From the NCBI RefSeq assembly GCF_013376455.1, contig NZ_CP045504.1, forward strand, positions 248,001 to 312,000: a stretch of DNA of 64,000 nt, given 5' to 3'. The translations under genes were made by a program, and so were the position numbers. Source of the DNA: Desulfolutivibrio sulfodismutans DSM 3696. GTDB taxonomy: Bacteria; Desulfobacterota; Desulfovibrionia; Desulfovibrionales; Desulfovibrionaceae. Numbering within the stretch: position 1 is the first letter of the stretch; each line of letters starts with the position of its first letter. The notes under the pieces are model-generated. The model saw only the letters and a program-made list of their open reading frames with translations, was not told where the DNA came from and ran no database searches. Of the stretch, positions 13,714 to 22,793 are shown piece by piece.

Positions 13714-14478
13714 TCACGGCCATAAAAGCCCGGCCGCCGCCAGGACCACGGCCAGGGCGCAGGGCAGCGCCCCGCGCCAGGGATGGACGAACACGGGCCG
13801 CCAGGCCTCGGGCCGGTCCAGGTTGCGGGCGGCCACGGCCATGGTCCGGTCATAGGCCGTCAGGCTCACGGCCCGCAGCAGGGCCGTGGCGAACAGCCCG
13901 GGTTTGCGGGAAAACGGCAGGTCCGGGCAACGCAGGCGCATGGTGCGGCGGATGGCCGCGCCAGCGGTCCAGGCCAGGGGGAGATTGTGGACCAAAAGGG
14001 CCAGGGCCAGGGCGGCCTTCCAGGCCCGGCGGCCAAGCACCGGGGTCAGGGCGTAGGACAGGGCCGCGCCCATCTGGCGGGGCGAGGTGGAGGCGGCCAG
14101 GATCAGCCCCAGACAGATCAGGGACAGCAGCCTGGCCCCGAAGACCGCGCTTTCGGCGCAGGCTGCGGCCGGGGCGACGCCGCCCCAGATGTCGAACAGG
14201 GCCTTGGCTGCGGCCCAGAGGATGACGAAGACGGCGTTGCCGCGCAGGGCGGCCGGGCCGAAGCTTGATCCGGGAACCGTGAGAAAGGCCAAAAGGGCCA
14301 GGGTCAGGGTGGAGACGGCGGTCGCCCCGGGACCGAACCGCCAGATGATCGGCCCCAGCACAAGGGCCGTCGCCAGCTTCACCCGGGGGTCCATGGCCGC
14401 AAGGGAACTGGCCGGGGAAAACCGGACAGGGCCTGGAGATGCGGCCGCGGGAGACGTGTCGGGATGGAGGGCGGTCAT
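13714..14478 (-). CDS. EcfT/CbiQ-like energy-coupling transmembrane protein (254 aa)
   Basis: The ATG at 14478 overlaps the stop of the permease gene as ATGA. Residues 25-45 carry the family start (SSLAAMDPRVKLATALVLGP). Several membrane helices follow (TAVSTLTLALLAFLTV, ARLLSLICLGLILAAST). The typical EcfT coupling region appears as SPRQMGAALSYALTP, then AIRRTMRLR. EcfT normally links S-components to EcfA ATPases for vitamin or metal uptake, but no ATPase or S-component gene is adjacent. Translational coupling to an SO_0444-type permease suggests they work together, perhaps in metal handling. Confidence 0.7.
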   Translation of the reverse strand: MTALHPDTSPAAASPGPVRFSPASSLAAMDPRVKLATALVLGPIIWRFGPGATAVSTLTLALLAFLTVPGSSFGPAALRGNAVFVILWAAAKALFDIWGGVAPAAACAESAVFGARLLSLICLGLILAASTSPRQMGAALSYALTPVLGRRAWKAALALALLVHNLPLAWTAGAAIRRTMRLRCPDLPFSRKPGLFATALLRAVSLTAYDRTMAVAARNLDRPEAWRPVFVHPWRGALPCALAVVLAAAGLLWP

Positions 14479-15644
14479 GGCCGTGGCGCGTCCGGGCCGG
14501 TGCATCCGCATTCGCAGGTGGTGCGCCGTTTGGCGAAAAGCGGCCACAGCAGGCAGGCGGCCAGGACCGCCGCCGCCAGATACGAGGGCAGACCGGGGGC
14601 ATCCTTGCCGGACGTGGCCAGGAAGTCGGCGGTTTTTGCGGCCACGCCGGGGAAAAAGGCGTCCAGGCACAGACCGGCGGCCAGGGAGCAGACGACGATG
14701 GCCGCCAGGTAGCTGGCCGCGCCGCGTTTCCCCAGGATCTTGACGGCCACGGCCAGGGTGGCGGCGTTGGTGGCTGGTCCGGCCAGCAGGAAAACCAGGG
14801 CCGCGCCCGGCGACAGGCCCTTGACCAGGAGCGCCGCCGCGATGGGGGTGGAGGCCGTGGCGCAGACGTACAGGGGCACGGCCACGGCCAGGACCGCCAG
14901 CATGGGCGCGATGCCGGAGCCCAGCCGGGCTTGGATGAAATCCGGCGGCACAAGGGCGCTGATGATCCCGGAGAGCACGACCCCCAGCACGAACCAGCCG
15001 CCGATGTCCGGCAAAAGCTCCCCGAAGGCGTAGCGGATTCCGGCCATGAGCCGAACCAGGAGGGGGGCCTGTTGTGATGGCCTGCCGCCGCAGCCGCACC
15101 CGGCCGTACAGGCGTTGGCGCAGGCGTCGGGCGTGGACAGCCCGGCGGCGAAATCCGCCGGGGCATGCAGGGCGCGCCCGGAGCGGGGGGCCTGCGGGGC
15201 GGCCGCGGCTGGCCGGTCGCTGTCCAGGGCGTTGACGAACAGCCCGGCCAGGGTGGCCGTGACCACGGCGGCCAGGGGGCGGATGACGGCCATGGCCGGA
15301 CCCAGGAGGGCATAGGTCACGGCCACGGAATCCACGCCCGTCTCCGGGGTGGAGATGAGAAATGCGGCCGTGGCCCCCCTGCCTGCGCCGCGCCGCCGTA
15401 TCTCCGCCGCCGCCGGGATCACCCCGCAACTGCACAGCGGAAGCGGCGCGCCCAGAAGCGAGGCCAAAAGGACGCTGCCCGGGCCGCGTCCGCCAAGCCT
15501 GGAAAAGATGAATCCTTCGGGCACAAAGGCCCGCAACAAACCGGCTACGAACATGCCAAAAAGCATATACGGGGCCGATTCCACGAAAACGTTCAGGGAC
15601 GCGGCGGCCATGGCCGAAATGGCCTCGATGACGGCGTGTGGCAT
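14475..15644 (-). CDS. SO_0444/UPF0718-type permease, putative metal efflux (389 aa)
   Basis: The start MPHAVIEAISAM at 15644 has AAGGAGAG upstream, at a long spacing. About eight to ten membrane helices fall in two halves. The first half contains the family motif GAPLPLCSCGVIPAA, and the second half has the matching VPLYVCATASTPIAAALL. Between them is a Cys-rich loop (CANACTAGCGCGG), and the C-terminus ends in CECGC; both are good candidates for soft-metal binding. Related proteins are annotated as Cu/Zn or arsenical efflux permeases; the substrate here is inferred only. It overlaps the EcfT-like gene by 4 nt. Confidence 0.78.
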   Translation of the reverse strand: MPHAVIEAISAMAAASLNVFVESAPYMLFGMFVAGLLRAFVPEGFIFSRLGGRGPGSVLLASLLGAPLPLCSCGVIPAAAEIRRRGAGRGATAAFLISTPETGVDSVAVTYALLGPAMAVIRPLAAVVTATLAGLFVNALDSDRPAAAAPQAPRSGRALHAPADFAAGLSTPDACANACTAGCGCGGRPSQQAPLLVRLMAGIRYAFGELLPDIGGWFVLGVVLSGIISALVPPDFIQARLGSGIAPMLAVLAVAVPLYVCATASTPIAAALLVKGLSPGAALVFLLAGPATNAATLAVAVKILGKRGAASYLAAIVVCSLAAGLCLDAFFPGVAAKTADFLATSGKDAPGLPSYLAAAVLAACLLWPLFAKRRTTCECGCTGPDAPRP

Positions 15645-15842
15645 GCGGTGTTTTTCTCTCTCCTTCTGGCGCTGGTGCGCCCGGGCGGACCATACCGCGC
15701 CCGGGGGGCTTGGGCCAATGCGGAATAAATCATATGAAAAAAGCATGATAATCCCGGGCTGGTCCCGGCGTCAAAGCGCAAGGGCCGCCATTCCCGGAAA
15801 GGGACGGCGGCCCGAAGGGGTCGTTTCAGGGCGCGGGACGGG

Positions 15843-17969
15843 TCAGCTCAAGGCCCGGGGCTTGGCGGAACCGGCCGGGAAGACGATTTCGGCCCGGGAG
15901 GATTCGGCATTGAGCGTGGTGACGGTGATCTTCACCCGCTCTTTGAAAAACTCGGCCGCGCCGTTTAAGATGCCCTCGAAATAATGCGGATAGCCGCGTT
16001 TGGAGTGGTAGGTCATGATCAAGGTGTCGCCCTTGTCCTCATAGGTGAAGCGGGGCGGGTGGATGCCCGGAAATTCCTTGGTCAGCCGGGCATGGGTGTC
16101 GTTCATGGTCAGGTAGAATTCCTTGAGGGTCTTGGCCTTGAAGTAGCGGCGGTACATGCGGTGGAACTGGGGCACGGTGAACCGGCCAAGCTTCAGGAAG
16201 ATGTCCCGCTGGCTCTGGCCGGTCAGGCCGGAGATCAGGTCGGCCATCTGGGAGAGTACCTGGTCGGGATAGCTGTCCGTGGGCAGAAAGGTGGGCTTGC
16301 CCATCTCTTCCTGCATGCGTTCGTAGACCTTGTGGTCAAAGTTCTGGCGGATGAACTCCTGCATGAGTTTGGGCAGGATGCCCTTCATGTCGCCCTTGGA
16401 GGCCCGCAGCTTGGTCCTGTCGGCGGACTCTCCGGAAAAGGCCAGGGACAGGGTCAAAAGCTCCTGGGACAGGGCCGCCAGCTCCCGGGTGGCCTGGGCC
16501 GTCTGGGTGGCGCCCTCTTCGGCCTCGGTGGCCACCACGGCGATTTCCTCGATACTGTGGTTGATCTCCTCGGCGGCGGCGGACTGCTCCTCGGCGGCCG
16601 TGGCGATCTGGGCCACCTGGCCGGACATGTCCAGGATGCTTTGGATGATCTGCTCCAGGGAGGTTCCGGCCTTTCCCGTGGCCTCGGTCCCGACAGCCAC
16701 CTGGCGTTCGGTGTCGCGCATGGAGGACACGGCCTGGCGCGAACCGTCCTGGATGCGGCCAATGGATTGCTCCACCTCCTTGGTGGCGGTCATGGTCTTT
16801 TCCGCAAGCTTTCTGACCTCGTCGGCCACCACGGCGAATCCGCGCCCGGCCTCTCCGGCCCGTGCGGCCTCGATGGCGGCGTTTAAGGCCAACAGGTTGG
16901 TCTGGTCCGCGATGTCGTTGATGACCCCGATGATGCGCCCGATCTCGGCGGCCTGGGAATCGAGGTCGGCCAAGACCTGGCCGAGTCGGCTTGCGGACTG
17001 GGCCACCTCGTTGATGCCGTCCACGGCCTCGCGCACCCGGCCGGAGCCGTCGCTTGCGGCGTTGTTGGCGTGATTGGCGGCCTCGGCGGTCTTGGAGGCG
17101 TTTTGGGCCACTTCCAGGACCGTGGCCGTCATCTCTTCCATGGCCGTGGCCACGGTGTCGGCCTGACCCTTCTGCTGCTGCGCCCCCCGGGCCTGCTCGT
17201 CGGCCGAGGCGGACAACTCTTCCGAGGCCGAGGCCACACGCTGGGCCAACTCATTGATCTGGCGGCCAAGGGTCAGCATCTCCTCGTTGGTTTCGTCGAT
17301 CTTGTGGCGCTGCTCGTTGGCCAGGGTCATGTCCGTCAGGGACAAGACCGCGCCGAGAACGTCGCCCTTGGAATTTGTGATGCAGTCGACATAAAAAAAG
17401 ATGTCCACGCTGCGGCCGTCCCACAGGGTCAGGCGTTTTTCCTCGGATACCTTGGCCTTGGTGCGCATGACCTCCTCGGTGACCGACGCGCCCTCCTTGC
17501 CGTAAAAGGTCCGGCTCACGGTCTGCCCTACGATATCCTTGACCGGCTTTTTGAGCAGGGCGGCCATGGAATCGCTGACGTGGGTCACGATTCCCTTCTC
17601 GTCGCACATGAGAAACGGGGTGCCCACAGCCTGGACCGCTCCACGGTAGAACTCCCGGCGATGCATGTTGAAAGCAACCACATCGGAAACAAGCGCGGCC
17701 AGAGGGCCGTGTTCCTTCCAGGCATGCACCTCGTCGAACAGGAAGTCCCGCTTCTTTTCATTGACCTTGGAAAGCCCGGCCATGAGCAAGCCATCGGAAC
17801 CGGAAACGGTCATGGCCAGCCAGATGGCGCAGGCTGCTCCGAGCGCCACGCATCCGATCATCACCCACAGATTGGCGAAAAAGAAAGACACAACGATGAG
17901 GGCGCATAGCGCCGCCCCCACAACGCTCGTTTTCACGGACGGGGAAAAGGCAGGTGATGATTGGTCCAT
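15843..17969 (-). CDS. methyl-accepting chemotaxis protein with PAS and C-terminal H-NOX heme domain (708 aa)
   Basis: ATG 17969 has GAGGAGA upstream. Two adjacent membrane helices (about 12-32 and 35-53) leave almost no periplasmic loop. A PAS-like domain covers roughly residues 105-225. The signalling domain (about 250-515) has the conserved hairpin tip [19 protein letters not shown]. Residues 528-708 form an H-NOX domain starting [12 protein letters not shown]. The expected proximal heme ligand is His626 ([13 protein letters not shown]), and the heme-propionate motif YxSxR is Tyr654-Ser656-Arg658 (YHSKR). H-NOX binds NO or O2, so this should be a cytoplasmic gas-sensing chemoreceptor. In the well-known thermophile example H-NOX is N-terminal; here it is C-terminal. 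Confidence 0.88.
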
Positions 17970-18196
17970 GAAGGTCTCCTCGCGGGTGTCTCTGAATTTT
18001 TAGGCATGAAAACGATAGCCCATTCCCGGGCCGGGCACAACTGCGCAGCGGCGGCATTTTTGCATTGCAAAAAGACTGCATGAGGCGGATGTGGCGGGAG
18101 TATACCGTTTGATCTTCCGGAAAAGCCTCGTGCTTTTCCGGTCATTTCCATGGCGAAAGTGTGTAGTTTGTTACGTAGCCTGGGCGAAAGCGGCGT

Positions 18197-20002
18197 TTAC
18201 CGGGAATCGGGGGCAAAAGGCCCGGCCAGTCCGATATCGACCGGGCAGACGCCGCGAAAGGGATTGTCGCCGTAAAGGGACTGCCCCAGGGCCGTCAGGG
18301 AGGCCGGGACATCGCCGTAGGTGGCGACCAGACATGGGGCGTCCGGGAAAAGGGCTGCGTCATAGGGCGCGCCCGAGGCCACAAGCACCACCTTGCCCGG
18401 ATGCGCGGCAAAAAGCTCCTGGGCCAGCCGGGCCTGACCCGGTTTCGTGGCCGCCCCGGAGACGAGCAGGACCACGGCCCGGGCCTCCCGGGCCAGGGCC
18501 AGAACCTCCGTCGTCTCGGTCGACGAGGGGTCGCCGGAAACGGGCGCAAGCCGGACGCCGGGCCAGGCGGAAAGTGCCGCCTCGGCTGGCTCGTCCACAT
18601 CCGGCGCGCCGCGCCGGGGGCGAATGACCAGGGTGAGGCCGGTTTTTTTCAGGGGCAGCAGATGGGCGTCGTCGCGCAGAAGGGTCATGCTGCGCCGGGC
18701 GATCTTTTCCGCCTCCCGGATGTGGGCGGCGGTGGCCAGGCGGGCCGCCAGTTTCTGCGGATCGGTTTCCGGGGCCTTGATGTCCCTGGCCGCGAGAATC
18801 CCCAGACGTTTTTTCTCCGTGAGAATGCGGCGAACGGTCTCGTCCAGGCGGGCCATGGGAATCTCGCCGGAGCGCACGGCGGCCACGATGCGGGCATGAG
18901 CCTGGCGCTGCTGGTCCGTGGTATGGCCTTTGTCCGCGCCGAAAAGCAGCACGTCGGCCCCGGCGGCCAGGGCCTTGGCCGCAGCCTCCACCGTGCCCAC
19001 GGTATTGGCCATGGCCCCCATGCCCAGGGAGTCGGTAAAAATCAGTCCCTGGAAACCGAGTTTTTCCCGTAAAAGCCCGACGAGCACCTTGTGCGACAGG
19101 GTGGAGGGGGCCATGGACGGGTCCACGGCCGGAAGCTCCACATGGGCGGTCATGATGGCCCGGGTTCCGGCCGTGATCGCCGCCTGAAAGGGCGGCAGGT
19201 CCGTGCGGGCAAAGGTTGCCGCGTCATGGGCGACCACGGGCAGGCCCAGGTGGGAGTCCACGGCCGTGTCGCCGTGGCCGGGGAAATGCTTGGGGGTGCA
19301 GAGCATCTTCTCACGGCTGTAGCCGCGTACGGCGGCGGCGGTGAAGGCCGCCACCTTGGCCGGATCCTGGCCGAAGGAGCGGATGCCGATGATGGGGTTT
19401 TTCGGATTGATGTTGACGTCGGCCACGGGGGCGAAATTGACGTTGACGCCCAGGGCCGACAACTCCCGGGCCATGATCCGGGCCATGATTCCGGCGTTGT
19501 CCGGATTCCCCGTGGCGGCCACGGCCATGTTCGAGGGAAAAAGGGTCACCCCCCGGCGAAGCCTGGCCACGGGACCGCCTTCCTGGTCCACGGATACGAA
19601 AAGGCCCACGCCCTTTGGCGTCCCGGCCGCCGCTTTCTGGATCTCCCGCGACAGCGCGGCCACCTGGGCCGGACTCTCGACGTTTCCGGACACGCTGTAA
19701 TAGATCACGCCGCCGATGTGGTAGTCGGCGATCAAGGACCGCAGGTCGTCCGACACCACCGGCCCTGTAAAGTAGACGGTGAATACCTGGCCGACTTTTT
19801 CTTCCAGGCTCATGGCCGCGCACAAGGCGTCCACGCTTGAGGCACGTCCGGCCATGCCGGGCATGGCCCAGGCCAGGACGCAAAAAAAGGCGGCCAGGGC
19901 CGCCTTGGCGCAGGCCTTCGCGAGGTTGGGGGAATGCCTCCGGCGGCCAAAGGGCTCCGCCCTTTGGAATCCCTTTTCAGGTATCTTGCTCATGCAATCC
20001 AT
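18197..20002 (-). CDS. nagZ: GH3 beta-N-acetylhexosaminidase (NagZ/YbbD type), exported
   Basis: The GH3 catalytic domain contains SVDQEGGPVARLR, KHFPGHGDTAVDSHLGLP (substrate-binding KH and the His-containing loop of NagZ-type enzymes) and the nucleophile region FTDSLGMGAM. A C-terminal GH3_C-like domain follows. It should release GlcNAc from muropeptides or glycans. A signal peptide (core ALAAFFCVLAWAMPGMA) predicts export, unlike cytoplasmic NagZ. The start is uncertain: ATG 20002 has AAGGAA a few bases upstream, and ATG 19993 is also possible. Either way residues of about GFQRAEPFGRRRHS are encoded by a copy of the dispersed hairpin repeat, an odd N-terminal extension. Confidence 0.85.
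   Translation of the reverse strand: MDCMSKIPEKGFQRAEPFGRRRHSPNLAKACAKAALAAFFCVLAWAMPGMAGRASSVDALCAAMSLEEKVGQVFTVYFTGPVVSDDLRSLIADYHIGGVIYYSVSGNVESPAQVAALSREIQKAAAGTPKGVGLFVSVDQEGGPVARLRRGVTLFPSNMAVAATGNPDNAGIMARIMARELSALGVNVNFAPVADVNINPKNPIIGIRSFGQDPAKVAAFTAAAVRGYSREKMLCTPKHFPGHGDTAVDSHLGLPVVAHDAATFARTDLPPFQAAITAGTRAIMTAHVELPAVDPSMAPSTLSHKVLVGLLREKLGFQGLIFTDSLGMGAMANTVGTVEAAAKALAAGADVLLFGADKGHTTDQQRQAHARIVAAVRSGEIPMARLDETVRRILTEKKRLGILAARDIKAPETDPQKLAARLATAAHIREAEKIARRSMTLLRDDAHLLPLKKTGLTLVIRPRRGAPDVDEPAEAALSAWPGVRLAPVSGDPSSTETTEVLALAREARAVVLLVSGAATKPGQARLAQELFAAHPGKVVLVASGAPYDAALFPDAPCLVATYGDVPASLTALGQSLYGDNPFRGVCPVDIGLAGPFAPDSR
19936..19975 (+). repeat. CCAAAGGG-type hairpin repeat inside the nagZ 5' coding end
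   Basis: GCCTCCGGCGGCCAAAGGGC (19936-19955) pairs through CCAAAGGGC with GCCCTTTGG (19960-19968) and ends in AATCCC. It is the same family as the copies near 13.1 and 56.7 kb. It overlaps nagZ codons before the signal peptide and is antisense to the orientation seen in 3' UTRs. Confidence 0.65.
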
Positions 20003-20104
20003 ATTTTCCTTCCCGTACCCCCTCATCCCCGTCCTCACGGCGCTTTGCGCCGCGAGGACGGGGGGATGGGGGGTCCGGGGGGACTGGTCCCCCCGGGCGG
20101 GGTT

Positions 20105-20176: not shown

Positions 20177-21496
20177 CTAGAACTCCAATCCGTACGAACC
20201 GGCGAAGGCTTCGATGCGTTTGCGCGAGGCGTCGAGGCGGGCGCGCAGGTCTTTTTTGTACTGGGCGATGTCCACTGTGGCGCGGGCGACGCCGGAATCC
20301 ATGGCGGCCTTGGCCACGGCCGGGGCTTCCCATTCCAGCATGCGGTGGTCGAGGGCCTTGGGGATGACGTAATCCATGCCGAAGGAGAGTTCCTTGACGC
20401 CGTAAGCCTCGAGGATGTCGGCGGGGATGGGCTCCTTGGCCAGGGCGGCCAGGGCCTTGGCGGCGGCCATCTTCATGGTCTCGTTGATTTTGGAGGCCCG
20501 CACGTCCAGGGCGCCCCGGAAGATGAAGGGGAAGCCGGAGACGTTGTTGACCTGATTGGGGAAATCCGAGCGGCCGGTGCCCATGATGCAGTCGGGGCGG
20601 GCGTCTTTGGCGTCGTTGTAGGTGATTTCCGGGTCGGGGTTGGCCATGGCGAAGAGGATGGGGAATTTGCCCATGGACTTGACCATGTCTTTGGAGACGA
20701 GGCCTTTGGCGGACAGGCCGAGGAAGACGTCGGCGCCTTTGAAGGCCTCGGCCATGGCGCCGATGTCTTTTTTCTGGGCGAAATAGCGCTTGGACTCGTG
20801 GAGATCCGGGCGACCGGCGTGGATCAGGCCCTTGGAGTCGTACATGAAGATGTTGGCGCGGTTGACGCCCAGGGTTTCGTAGAATTTGCAGCAGGCGATG
20901 GCGGCGGCCCCGGCGCCGGAGACCACGACTTTCACGTCCTCAATGCGTTTTCCGGAGATTTCCATGGCGTTTAAGATGCCCGCGCCGGAGATGATGGCCG
21001 TGCCGTGCTGGTCGTCATGGAAGACGGGGATATCCATTTCCTCGATGAGCTTCTGCTCGATGTAGAAGCATTCCGGGGCCTTGATGTCTTCGAGGTTGAT
21101 GCCGCCGAAGGTGGGTTCGAGCATCTTGACGAATTCGATGATCTTGTCGGGATCGGGCTGGTTGATGTTTAAGTCGTAGACATCCACGTCGGCGAAGATC
21201 TTAAACAGCACGCCCTTGCCTTCCATGACCGGCTTTCCGGCCTTGGGGCCGATGTTTCCCAGGCCCAGGACGGCGGTTCCGTTGGAGACCACGGCCACCA
21301 GGTTGCCCTTGTTGGTGTAGTCGTAGACCTTGTCCGGGTCGGCGTGGATGGCCCGGCAGGACTCGGCCACGCCCGGGGTGTAGGCCATGGACAGGTGCTT
21401 CTGGGTGCGGCAGGGTTTGGTGGGCACGACTTCGACTTTCCCCTTGGGGAAACTCGAGTGGTAGGACAGGGCTTCTTCTTTGGTAAAAAGCGACAT
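20177..21496 (-). CDS. malic enzyme, NAD(P)-dependent decarboxylating (439 aa)
   Basis: The start [13 protein letters not shown] at 21496 has GGAGGA upstream; the longer frame to 21682 overlaps the neighbouring gene and is rejected. The N-terminal malic domain has [15 protein letters not shown] with the catalytic Tyr, and [19 protein letters not shown] with the catalytic Lys. The metal-binding FHDDQHGTA is followed by the NAD-binding Rossmann region [14 protein letters not shown]. It lacks the C-terminal phosphotransacetylase-like domain of MaeB, matching the short bacterial form. It converts malate to pyruvate and CO2, feeding NAD(P)H. It is 55 bp downstream of the GGDEF gene. Confidence 0.93.
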
Positions 21497-21551
21497 GCAT
21501 TCCTCCGTGAGCTGATTTTGATATGTCAGGCGCATTGCGCCGGGTGGCGGT

Positions 21552-22793
21552 TCAGGTCGGGGAATCGGGCGTCGGGTCTCCCCGCTTGACCGCGTACATG
21601 TCCGCATCGGCCCGGCGGATGAGGGCGTCGAGACTCTCGCCGGGTTCGAGGCGGGCCAGCCCCACCGACGCGGACACGCCAAGGGGGGTGTCCAGGCCGG
21701 TGATCCGGGGCACGCTGAGGCTGGAAACGGCCTTGGTGATGCGTGCGGCCATCTCTGCGGCCTCGGTCAGGTCGGTATCGGGCAAAATGGCCACGAATTC
21801 GTCGCCGCCAAGACGCGCGAAGATATCGTAGCGACGCATGGACTCCTTAAGGCGCATGGCGACGGCCGTAAGAACCCGGTCGCCAGCCGCATGGCCCAGG
21901 GTGTCGTTGATCGACTTGAACTTGTCCAGGTCGATGAAAAGCGCGCACACCGGAAAGCCTTTGCGGCCGGAAAACTCAAGCATCCGTGGGGCGTGGCGGG
22001 TTAGGTACGCCCGGTTGGGCGCTGTGGTCAACTCATCGATGACCGTTTCCCGGTCCAGTTTTTCATGGTCGCGGACATTGATGAGATCCGCCGCCAGAAT
22101 ATCGCAGAAGTGTTCCAGAAAATCCGTGGCCTTGTCCGGGGTATAGCGTCCGGGGGCGGGGTCGAAGAAGGCCACCGCGCCCACCAGCCGGTCACGGCGG
22201 AATTTGTCCTTGAGGCCGCAGACGAAGCAGGAGCCGTCCAAAAGGGCCGTGGTGGCGGGAGCATCCGGGGGCAGGAAGAAATCGGGCCGGGGCATGCGCC
22301 GGGTCAGCCCCAGAAAGGGGCGGGGTGGCGTGGCCTGGCACAGGCGGCATATCTCGGTCTCCAGGGTTGCGGCGGAGACGGCGCGGCCGAAGGGGAAGTC
22401 GCCTGGCAGAAAATCCGCGAAATCCTCGGCGCAAAGGGCCAGGCCGATCTCGGACACCACCAGGGTTTCCTTGAGTTGCGGCAAAAGGGCCGGGAGATGG
22501 GCCAGGCTGTGCATGGCCCGGGAGTGTTTGATGGCCTGGCGGAACTTCCGGAAGCTGGCGGCGTCGCGGCGGTTATGTTCGAGGAGCCTGCGCCTGGTTT
22601 CGGCCAGCTTCGCCATCTTGGCGCGCAACAGGGCGGCCTCGTCCTCAATGATGCGGCGATCATGGGCGAATCCGGCGGCCTGTTCGGTTCGCAGGGCTTC
22701 GATCTCGCGCAGTACGGCGGCGTGGTGCTTTTGCGGCACATGGCGCAAAATTTCCATCAGACGGGTTTCCTGGTCACGGTGCAACAGTTTCAT
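21552..22793 (-). CDS. DUF484-like sensor + GGDEF diguanylate cyclase (413 aa)
   Basis: The C-terminal domain (about 245-408) is a GGDEF cyclase with an intact active site GGDEF at 329-333 and an intact RxxD inhibitory site (RRYD, 320-323) exactly five residues upstream. It should therefore make cyclic di-GMP under product feedback control. The N-terminal half starts with a charged coiled coil (about 25-90) and continues into a DUF484/GAF-like globular region containing several Cys (ICRLC, SCFVC) that could sense redox or metals. There is no membrane segment. ATG 22793 has CGGAGAA upstream. Confidence 0.85.

Follow-up and report, generated by a model that had tools for sequence, protein, structure and literature searches.

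The window analysed in this work is a stretch of 64,000 nucleotides from Desulfolutivibrio sulfodismutans DSM 3696 and contains a gene coding for a chemoreceptor of 708 amino acids that ends in an H-NOX domain (Table 1). The protein starts with two transmembrane helices, continues with a PAS domain and the long hairpin of the methyl-accepting chemotaxis proteins (MCP), and only then comes the H-NOX domain. In the Pfam search MCPsignal (PF00015) covered residues 296-476 (E 4e-50) and HNOB residues 529-683 (E 5e-36, 124.5 bits against a curated cut-off of 25.5). The two hydrophobic stretches seen by hydropathy adjoin with no periplasmic domain between them, and the Pfam search, taken up to E 1, found neither HAMP nor hemerythrin in the 708-aa receptor. 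Counted with a hydropathy window in 61 alignment rows, some of them truncated at the start, two such stretches were found in 43, one in 12, none in 4 and three in 2. A preliminary description, made from the letters alone, had proposed two short adjacent membrane helices with no periplasmic sensor, a PAS domain, the MCP hairpin and a complete C-terminal H-NOX domain with His626 and a YxSxR motif (654-658). All of this was borne out, the helices by hydropathy and the structural model, PAS and MCP by Pfam and the modelled hairpin, and the H-NOX domain by Pfam, fold and alignment, so that the H-NOX/MCP fusion in reversed order had been correctly seen.

Table 1 Features of the H-NOX chemoreceptor gene, in window coordinates (residue numbers are those of the encoded protein; Tt, T. 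tengcongensis H-NOX)
Feature	Position	Strand	Basis
Whole gene, 708-aa chemoreceptor TM-TM-PAS-MCP-H-NOX	15843..17969	-	ORF, translation, Pfam
AGGAG, likely ribosome-binding site	17976..17980	-	sequence
TM helix 1, residues 10-31	17877..17942	-	model; hydropathy 16-34
TM helix 2, residues 34-55 (model helix continues to 71)	17805..17870	-	model; hydropathy 36-54
PAS domain, residues 106-215	17325..17654	-	Pfam PF00989/PF13426
Signal helix and N-terminal arm of MCP hairpin, residues 215-370	16860..17327	-	model; Pfam MCPsignal
Hairpin turn, residues 371-375, within nearly invariant tip	16845..16859	-	model; conserved columns 353-392
C-terminal arm of MCP hairpin, residues 376-512	16434..16844	-	model
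Linker, residues 513-527 (513-519 variable, 520-527 more conserved)	16389..16433	-	alignment, entropy
H-NOX domain, residues 528-697	15879..16388	-	Pfam HNOB; PDB sequence match; fold
Putative proximal heme ligand His626 (Tt His102)	16092..16094	-	alignment, 79/80 rows
Y654-x-S656-x-R658 heme motif	15996..16010	-	79/79 rows reaching motif
Distal Tyr663, aligned with Tt Tyr140	15981..15983	-	PDB chain alignment; 77/79 rows

Upstream of the receptor there are a glycosidase gene (18197-20038, minus strand) and a GGDEF gene (21552-22793, minus strand), with a malic enzyme gene (20177-21682) between them in the window that was found in none of the relatives' loci. Downstream lies a gene for an ArsP_1-family permease (14475-15746, minus strand), and an ORF at 13717-14610 that overlaps the coordinates of the permease gene had no Pfam match at E 0.001. 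We searched eight neighbour proteins in 77 loci of relatives, the limited length of which makes the counts lower bounds. The glycosidase and the GGDEF protein appeared in at least 9 of the 77 loci each and together in at least 8 (L006, L007, L011, L013, L018, L122, L132 and L133), forming a small block common to a few relatives, several of them named Solidesulfovibrio; each of the other six proteins appeared in 0 to 5 loci, again as minimum counts. The neighbourhood is not kept across the family and was rejected as a clue to a partner gene.

The full-length structural model (a monomer, built with 61 alignment rows; mean pLDDT 83.1, pTM 0.43, the five models spanning pLDDT 71.5 to 83.1) has helices at residues 10-31 and 34-71, a PAS region at 119-213, one helix at 215-370, a turn at 371-375, a second helix at 376-512 and, after a linker, the H-NOX domain at residues 527 to 696. 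Foldseek matched this model to H-NOX chains and to MCP hairpins. Since the pTM is low and the model is a monomer, the position of H-NOX relative to the hairpin is not to be trusted. Modelled alone, the H-NOX part reached a pLDDT of 93.4 and folded as an H-NOX, with a Z of 22.5 to the Nostoc H-NOX crystal 2o09 (171 residues at rmsd 1.6, 22% identity), 22.0 to the Tt H-NOX 4it2 and 20.4 to the beta subunit of soluble guanylate cyclase, 8hbe_B. By sequence, the best match in the PDB was the T. tengcongensis H-NOX (3nvr, 1u4h and others, E about 1e-15), the record of which is titled methyl-accepting chemotaxis protein, and the match to the Nostoc protein was weaker (E 5e-9).

The same domain order is the rule in the family. 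HNOB was present in 81 of 199 family genomes, once in each, and the order at all 81 loci was scored by phmmer with pieces of the window protein (P0001). In 80 of them, a few on shortened frames, MCP was followed by H-NOX; the remaining genome (G198) has a stand-alone H-NOX, and H-NOX before MCP was found in none of the 81. HNOB was also found in 76 of 199 genomes drawn from the class, a sample that overlaps that of the family. Four of the 76 belong to a sister family within the order, and all four have MCP and then H-NOX. The domain-order count does not include 11 newly drawn family genomes with HNOB, in which the open frames have 691-913 aa. Out of 395 genomes drawn from the phylum 11 had HNOB, namely 5 of the family that were already counted and 6 others with frames of 186-246 aa, all without MCP. 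Furthermore, 276 relatives were found in GTDB contigs and, among the matches listed, the H-NOX part appeared in 27 of the 80 loci (L002-L028); by record name these loci come from Desulfovibrio relatives or from unspecific proteobacterial bins, and the highest identity among the matches listed is 91%. No fusion was found in viral_contigs, and of the three records from plasmids one is an H-NOX-MCP fusion (L199) and the other two carry the annotation of separate heme NO-binding proteins. The recurrence in 80 family and 4 sister-family genomes indicates that the layout is due neither to chance nor to an assembly error: MCP followed by H-NOX is a conserved receptor layout of the family and no oddity. 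When 89 H-NOX rows were placed in a tree, a single branch (92/92, not starred) separated the 79 C-terminal rows from the others, and a fusion that arose once would be the simplest reading. The branches outside this group are long, that of the only N-terminal row very long, which makes the deeper order and the placement of the C-terminal group against the classic fusions unsafe.

The heme site was compared in an alignment of 80 rows, P0001 plus 79 ORFs, in which the gene of the window is present twice (P0001 and L001) and which thus represents 79 different genes; of the 108 fused ORFs, 9 shorter than 580 aa were not used, and 20 of the other 99 were merged as copies. The proximal His was conserved in 79 of the 80 rows and the YxSxR motif in all 79 rows that reach it. 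The complete set of His626, Pro639, Tyr654, Ser656 and Arg658 was present in 78 rows, the exceptions being L166 (Tyr for His) and L168 (row cut off). The counterpart of Tyr140 of the Tt chain is Tyr663; 77 of 79 rows have Tyr at this position and two have Phe, and the distal Tyr was found in none of the seven stand-alone H-NOX proteins of the phylum. The two rows with Phe are L166, which is also the one with Tyr instead of the proximal His, and L167, and the sensors of both are possibly altered or heme-free.

In the O2-binding H-NOX proteins of anaerobes the residues named for the distal pocket are Trp9, Asn74 and Tyr140 (PMC1435932, PMC7356049; here and below, papers are cited from the parts that were accessible). 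In the window receptor Thr598 aligns with Asn74 of Tt, and Met536 with Trp9 by ungapped extension to the start of the alignment. Positions 536, 598 and 663 read Met-Thr-Tyr in 52 of the 80 rows, Thr-Thr-Tyr in 10 and other combinations in the remainder, with no row of the alignment having Trp at 536 or Asn at 598. MCP-fused H-NOX domains of strict anaerobes have the distal Tyr and are regarded as likely O2 sensors (PMC8738867, PMC12329717). Judging from these residues, the H-NOX domain is likely to bind O2, the distal Tyr663 arguing for this ligand besides NO. Our main reading, to which we would give a probability of about 0.6, is that the protein is a chemoreceptor anchored in the membrane, which detects O2 as well as NO by its C-terminal H-NOX heme and reports to CheA. 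Trp9 and Asn74 hold Tyr140 in the Tt protein and their equivalents are replaced here, so that the affinity for O2 may be low. If O2 binding were too weak without these partners, NO would be the true signal and the receptor a NO sensor in practice, which we consider rather unlikely. The replacement in all rows speaks for it, as do the nrfA gene present in the same genome and the binding of NO, along with CO and O2, by the Tt H-NOX (PMC9814294), but the distal Tyr is retained almost throughout and nrfA is not associated with HNOB. It was present in 49 of the 81 HNOB genomes of the family versus 71 of the 118 others (120 genomes with matches at E < 1e-20; 123 over the profile cut-off), so its association was discarded as a sign of NO sensing.

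The tip of the MCP hairpin contacts CheA and CheW, and here the turn is at about residue 373, within the nearly invariant stretch 353-392. As the hairpin folds back at this tip, both of its ends are at the CheA-distal end. The C-terminal arm ends at residue 512, 139 residues from the turn, and the same distance on the N-terminal arm leads to about residue 234, some 20 residues after PAS. This would place H-NOX at the end of the hairpin that is distal to CheA and close to the membrane and the PAS junction; an arm of ~140 residues presumably fits the 40-heptad class of MCPs. Sensing at the CheA-distal end, as first suggested for this receptor, is thus upheld, but the idea of a signal reaching the coiled coil from the opposite side has to be abandoned. 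In the modelled geometry the H-NOX input would enter the other helix of the hairpin but at the same end, close to where PAS joins the MCP, and its integration with a PAS input appears possible.

CheA (PF02895) was found in 166 of the 199 family genomes and in all 81 that have HNOB, the 33 family genomes without CheA having no HNOB (hypergeometric 4e-9, an overstated value because it ignores relatedness and incomplete genomes). The genome of the window (G000) has 6 matches to PF02895 and 32 to the MCP domain, 30 of these given as loci.

The link between hairpin and H-NOX is short. From Phe511 to Met528, both counted, there are 16-22 residues (18 in 56 of the 80 rows). Mean column entropy in the linker is 2.85 bits at residues 512-519 and 1.89 at 520-527, and several junction residues are kept (Ser524 in 76 of the 80 rows, Leu521 in 68, Arg522 in 56 and Lys520 in 47). 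A single rigid helix from the hairpin to H-NOX as the sole link was rejected, since 512-519 varies in both sequence and length. We propose the following course of events. The heme would be held by His626 together with Tyr654, Ser656 and Arg658 of the predicted fold, and Tyr663 would stabilise O2 on it. Ligand binding would then move the N-terminal (distal) subdomain of H-NOX relative to the proximal one, as has been reported for other H-NOX proteins: in that of Shewanella the distal subdomain rotates by about 4 degrees, and the O2-binding Cs protein shows a similar rotation (PMC8196705). In full-length soluble guanylate cyclase the subdomain shift is less apparent and the helix of the proximal His shifts instead (PMC8196705), so that this step may not hold. 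As H-NOX is attached to the MCP by its N-terminus, it would be the turning subdomain itself that the linker ties to the C-terminal helix of the hairpin. The movement of this subdomain would alter how the helices pack where the bundle ends towards the membrane, close to the PAS junction, and with it the activity of CheA at the tip. The outcome would most likely be swimming away from oxygen, as the anaerobic lineage and the published view of MCP-fused H-NOX domains would suggest.

The position of H-NOX lends itself to one other use. The domain takes the place of the classic C-terminal tail of MCPs, with no more than 16 residues from its end to that of the protein and a linker that is variable in part, and it could act on adaptation by gating the access of CheR and CheB to the methylation helices. 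We find this distinctly improbable, because the conserved residues at the junction suggest a defined contact. Nor do we give much credit, indeed very little, to PAS as the main sensor with H-NOX as a passive or vestigial appendage: PAS is there and runs in the model by a continuous helix into the hairpin, but conservation is much stronger in H-NOX, whose heme residues hardly vary, and the PAS of P0001 was unmatched by phmmer in 31 of the 108 fused ORFs (some of them shortened, and with genes possibly duplicated between collections). In the alignment the mean column entropy was 2.64 bits for the transmembrane part, 2.32 for PAS, 2.66 for the helix after PAS, 1.27 and 1.31 for the hairpin arms, 0.12 for the tip and 1.37 for H-NOX. 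H-NOX is therefore about as conserved as the arms, and with PAS much looser (2.32 versus 1.37 bits) it looks like the constant sensor of these receptors. Least credible of all is a heme-independent redox sensor on the H-NOX fold, a behaviour reported for the Vibrio cholerae protein (PMC7108781), given that the heme-site His and the YxSxR motif are retained here.

The receptor shares with the classic H-NOX-MCP proteins, of the Tt/Caldanaerobacter type, an H-NOX domain with the distal Tyr fused to an MCP in anaerobic lineages. Our genome draws were within one phylum and the classic order rests on one record and on papers. The record is that of the Clostridial Acetoanaerobium noterae (L199 3869-5683), a 604-aa protein with HNOB at 8-165 and MCPsignal at 403-555, which by eye keeps Trp, Asn and Tyr where the window receptor has Met, Thr and Tyr. 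A review describes the H-NOX domains of anaerobes as fused to C-terminal effectors (PMC8196705), and both sources agree with the preliminary description in that H-NOX comes first in the classic fusion; other papers mention H-NOX fused to MCPs, in their accessible parts with no order given (PMC8738867, PMC9814294, PMC12329717). In the window receptor H-NOX (528-697) follows the hairpin (215-512) and PAS is in front. In the classic fusions the output comes after the C-terminal (proximal) end of H-NOX, and here it precedes the distal subdomain. A likeness of another sort is found in DcrH of Desulfovibrio vulgaris, also with a gas-binding domain after the MCP domain and in related bacteria, although DcrH has a non-heme diiron hemerythrin, a periplasmic domain and HAMP (PMC9388753, in the parts seen), none of which is present in the window receptor. 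The stand-alone H-NOX proteins that go with a histidine kinase or diguanylate cyclase have the same domain and heme motif but are separate proteins without the distal Tyr. The beta subunit of soluble guanylate cyclase combines the H-NOX fold with PAS and a coiled coil in one chain, but has H-NOX first and a cyclase as output (PMC8196705).

In the literature searched, which left most subscription papers out of reach, we found no description of an H-NOX domain C-terminal to an MCP. Early alignments of the family reportedly included the H-NOX of Desulfovibrio desulfuricans, and the domain order may thus have been visible to specialists. We consider the receptor a reversed-order variant of the H-NOX chemoreceptors with a layout parallel to that of DcrH, and not a new kind of system. 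The reverse order in all 84 class genomes with the fusion that were checked (80 of the family and 4 of the sister family) corrects the general statement on C-terminal effectors in the accessible text of the review (PMC8196705), and this correction, together with the question of coupling, is where the interest lies. How a C-terminal sensor drives the MCP is poorly understood for DcrH, as far as the available sections of two reviews tell (PMC9388753, PMC13401364). The receptors described here offer a natural test of how a sensor behind the hairpin does so, with a heme domain of described motions, and bear on the detection of oxygen by sulfate-reducing bacteria and their relatives. A bolder interpretation, doubtful but conceivable, is that they form a second and separately built kind of H-NOX chemoreceptor, with the output on the mobile distal subdomain, the signal of H-NOX passing into the C-terminal hairpin helix and that of the adjacent PAS into the N-terminal one. 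If so, the receptor would integrate two inputs from the cytoplasm at the same end of the bundle, and its kinase response may have the opposite sign to that of H-NOX-first receptors.

Some other genes deserve mention. In G198 (L206 4953-5534 and 5903-7162, plus strand) the sole HNOB gene codes for the stand-alone protein, which lacks the distal Tyr, and has a GAF-GGDEF gene 3' to it. A stand-alone H-NOX followed by a GGDEF gene is the usual arrangement of NO sensors. Only two further receptors in the genome of the window extend more than 100 residues beyond the MCP domain, and these were scanned. One of them (L186 847-3402, minus strand; around C1:921010-921561) has a PilJ-type N-terminal part, HAMP, MCP and then a hemerythrin domain at residues 731-845, being DcrH-like, and another MCP gene (L187; C1:919546-920097, plus strand) lies tail to tail with it. 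The other (L188 898-2622, minus strand; around C1:4178699-4179247), the frame start of which is unsettled, has after the MCP domain a Cache/PDC-like stretch at residues 447-537, with PF22673 over and PF02743 under the cut-off. Cache domains are usually extracytoplasmic, which makes this placement odd. In addition, in all four loci of the sister family (L202-L205) the H-NOX receptor adjoins another MCP-like frame on the same strand, which has 639-714 aa and matches weakly, and that of L205, the one scanned, matched MCPsignal over the cut-off.
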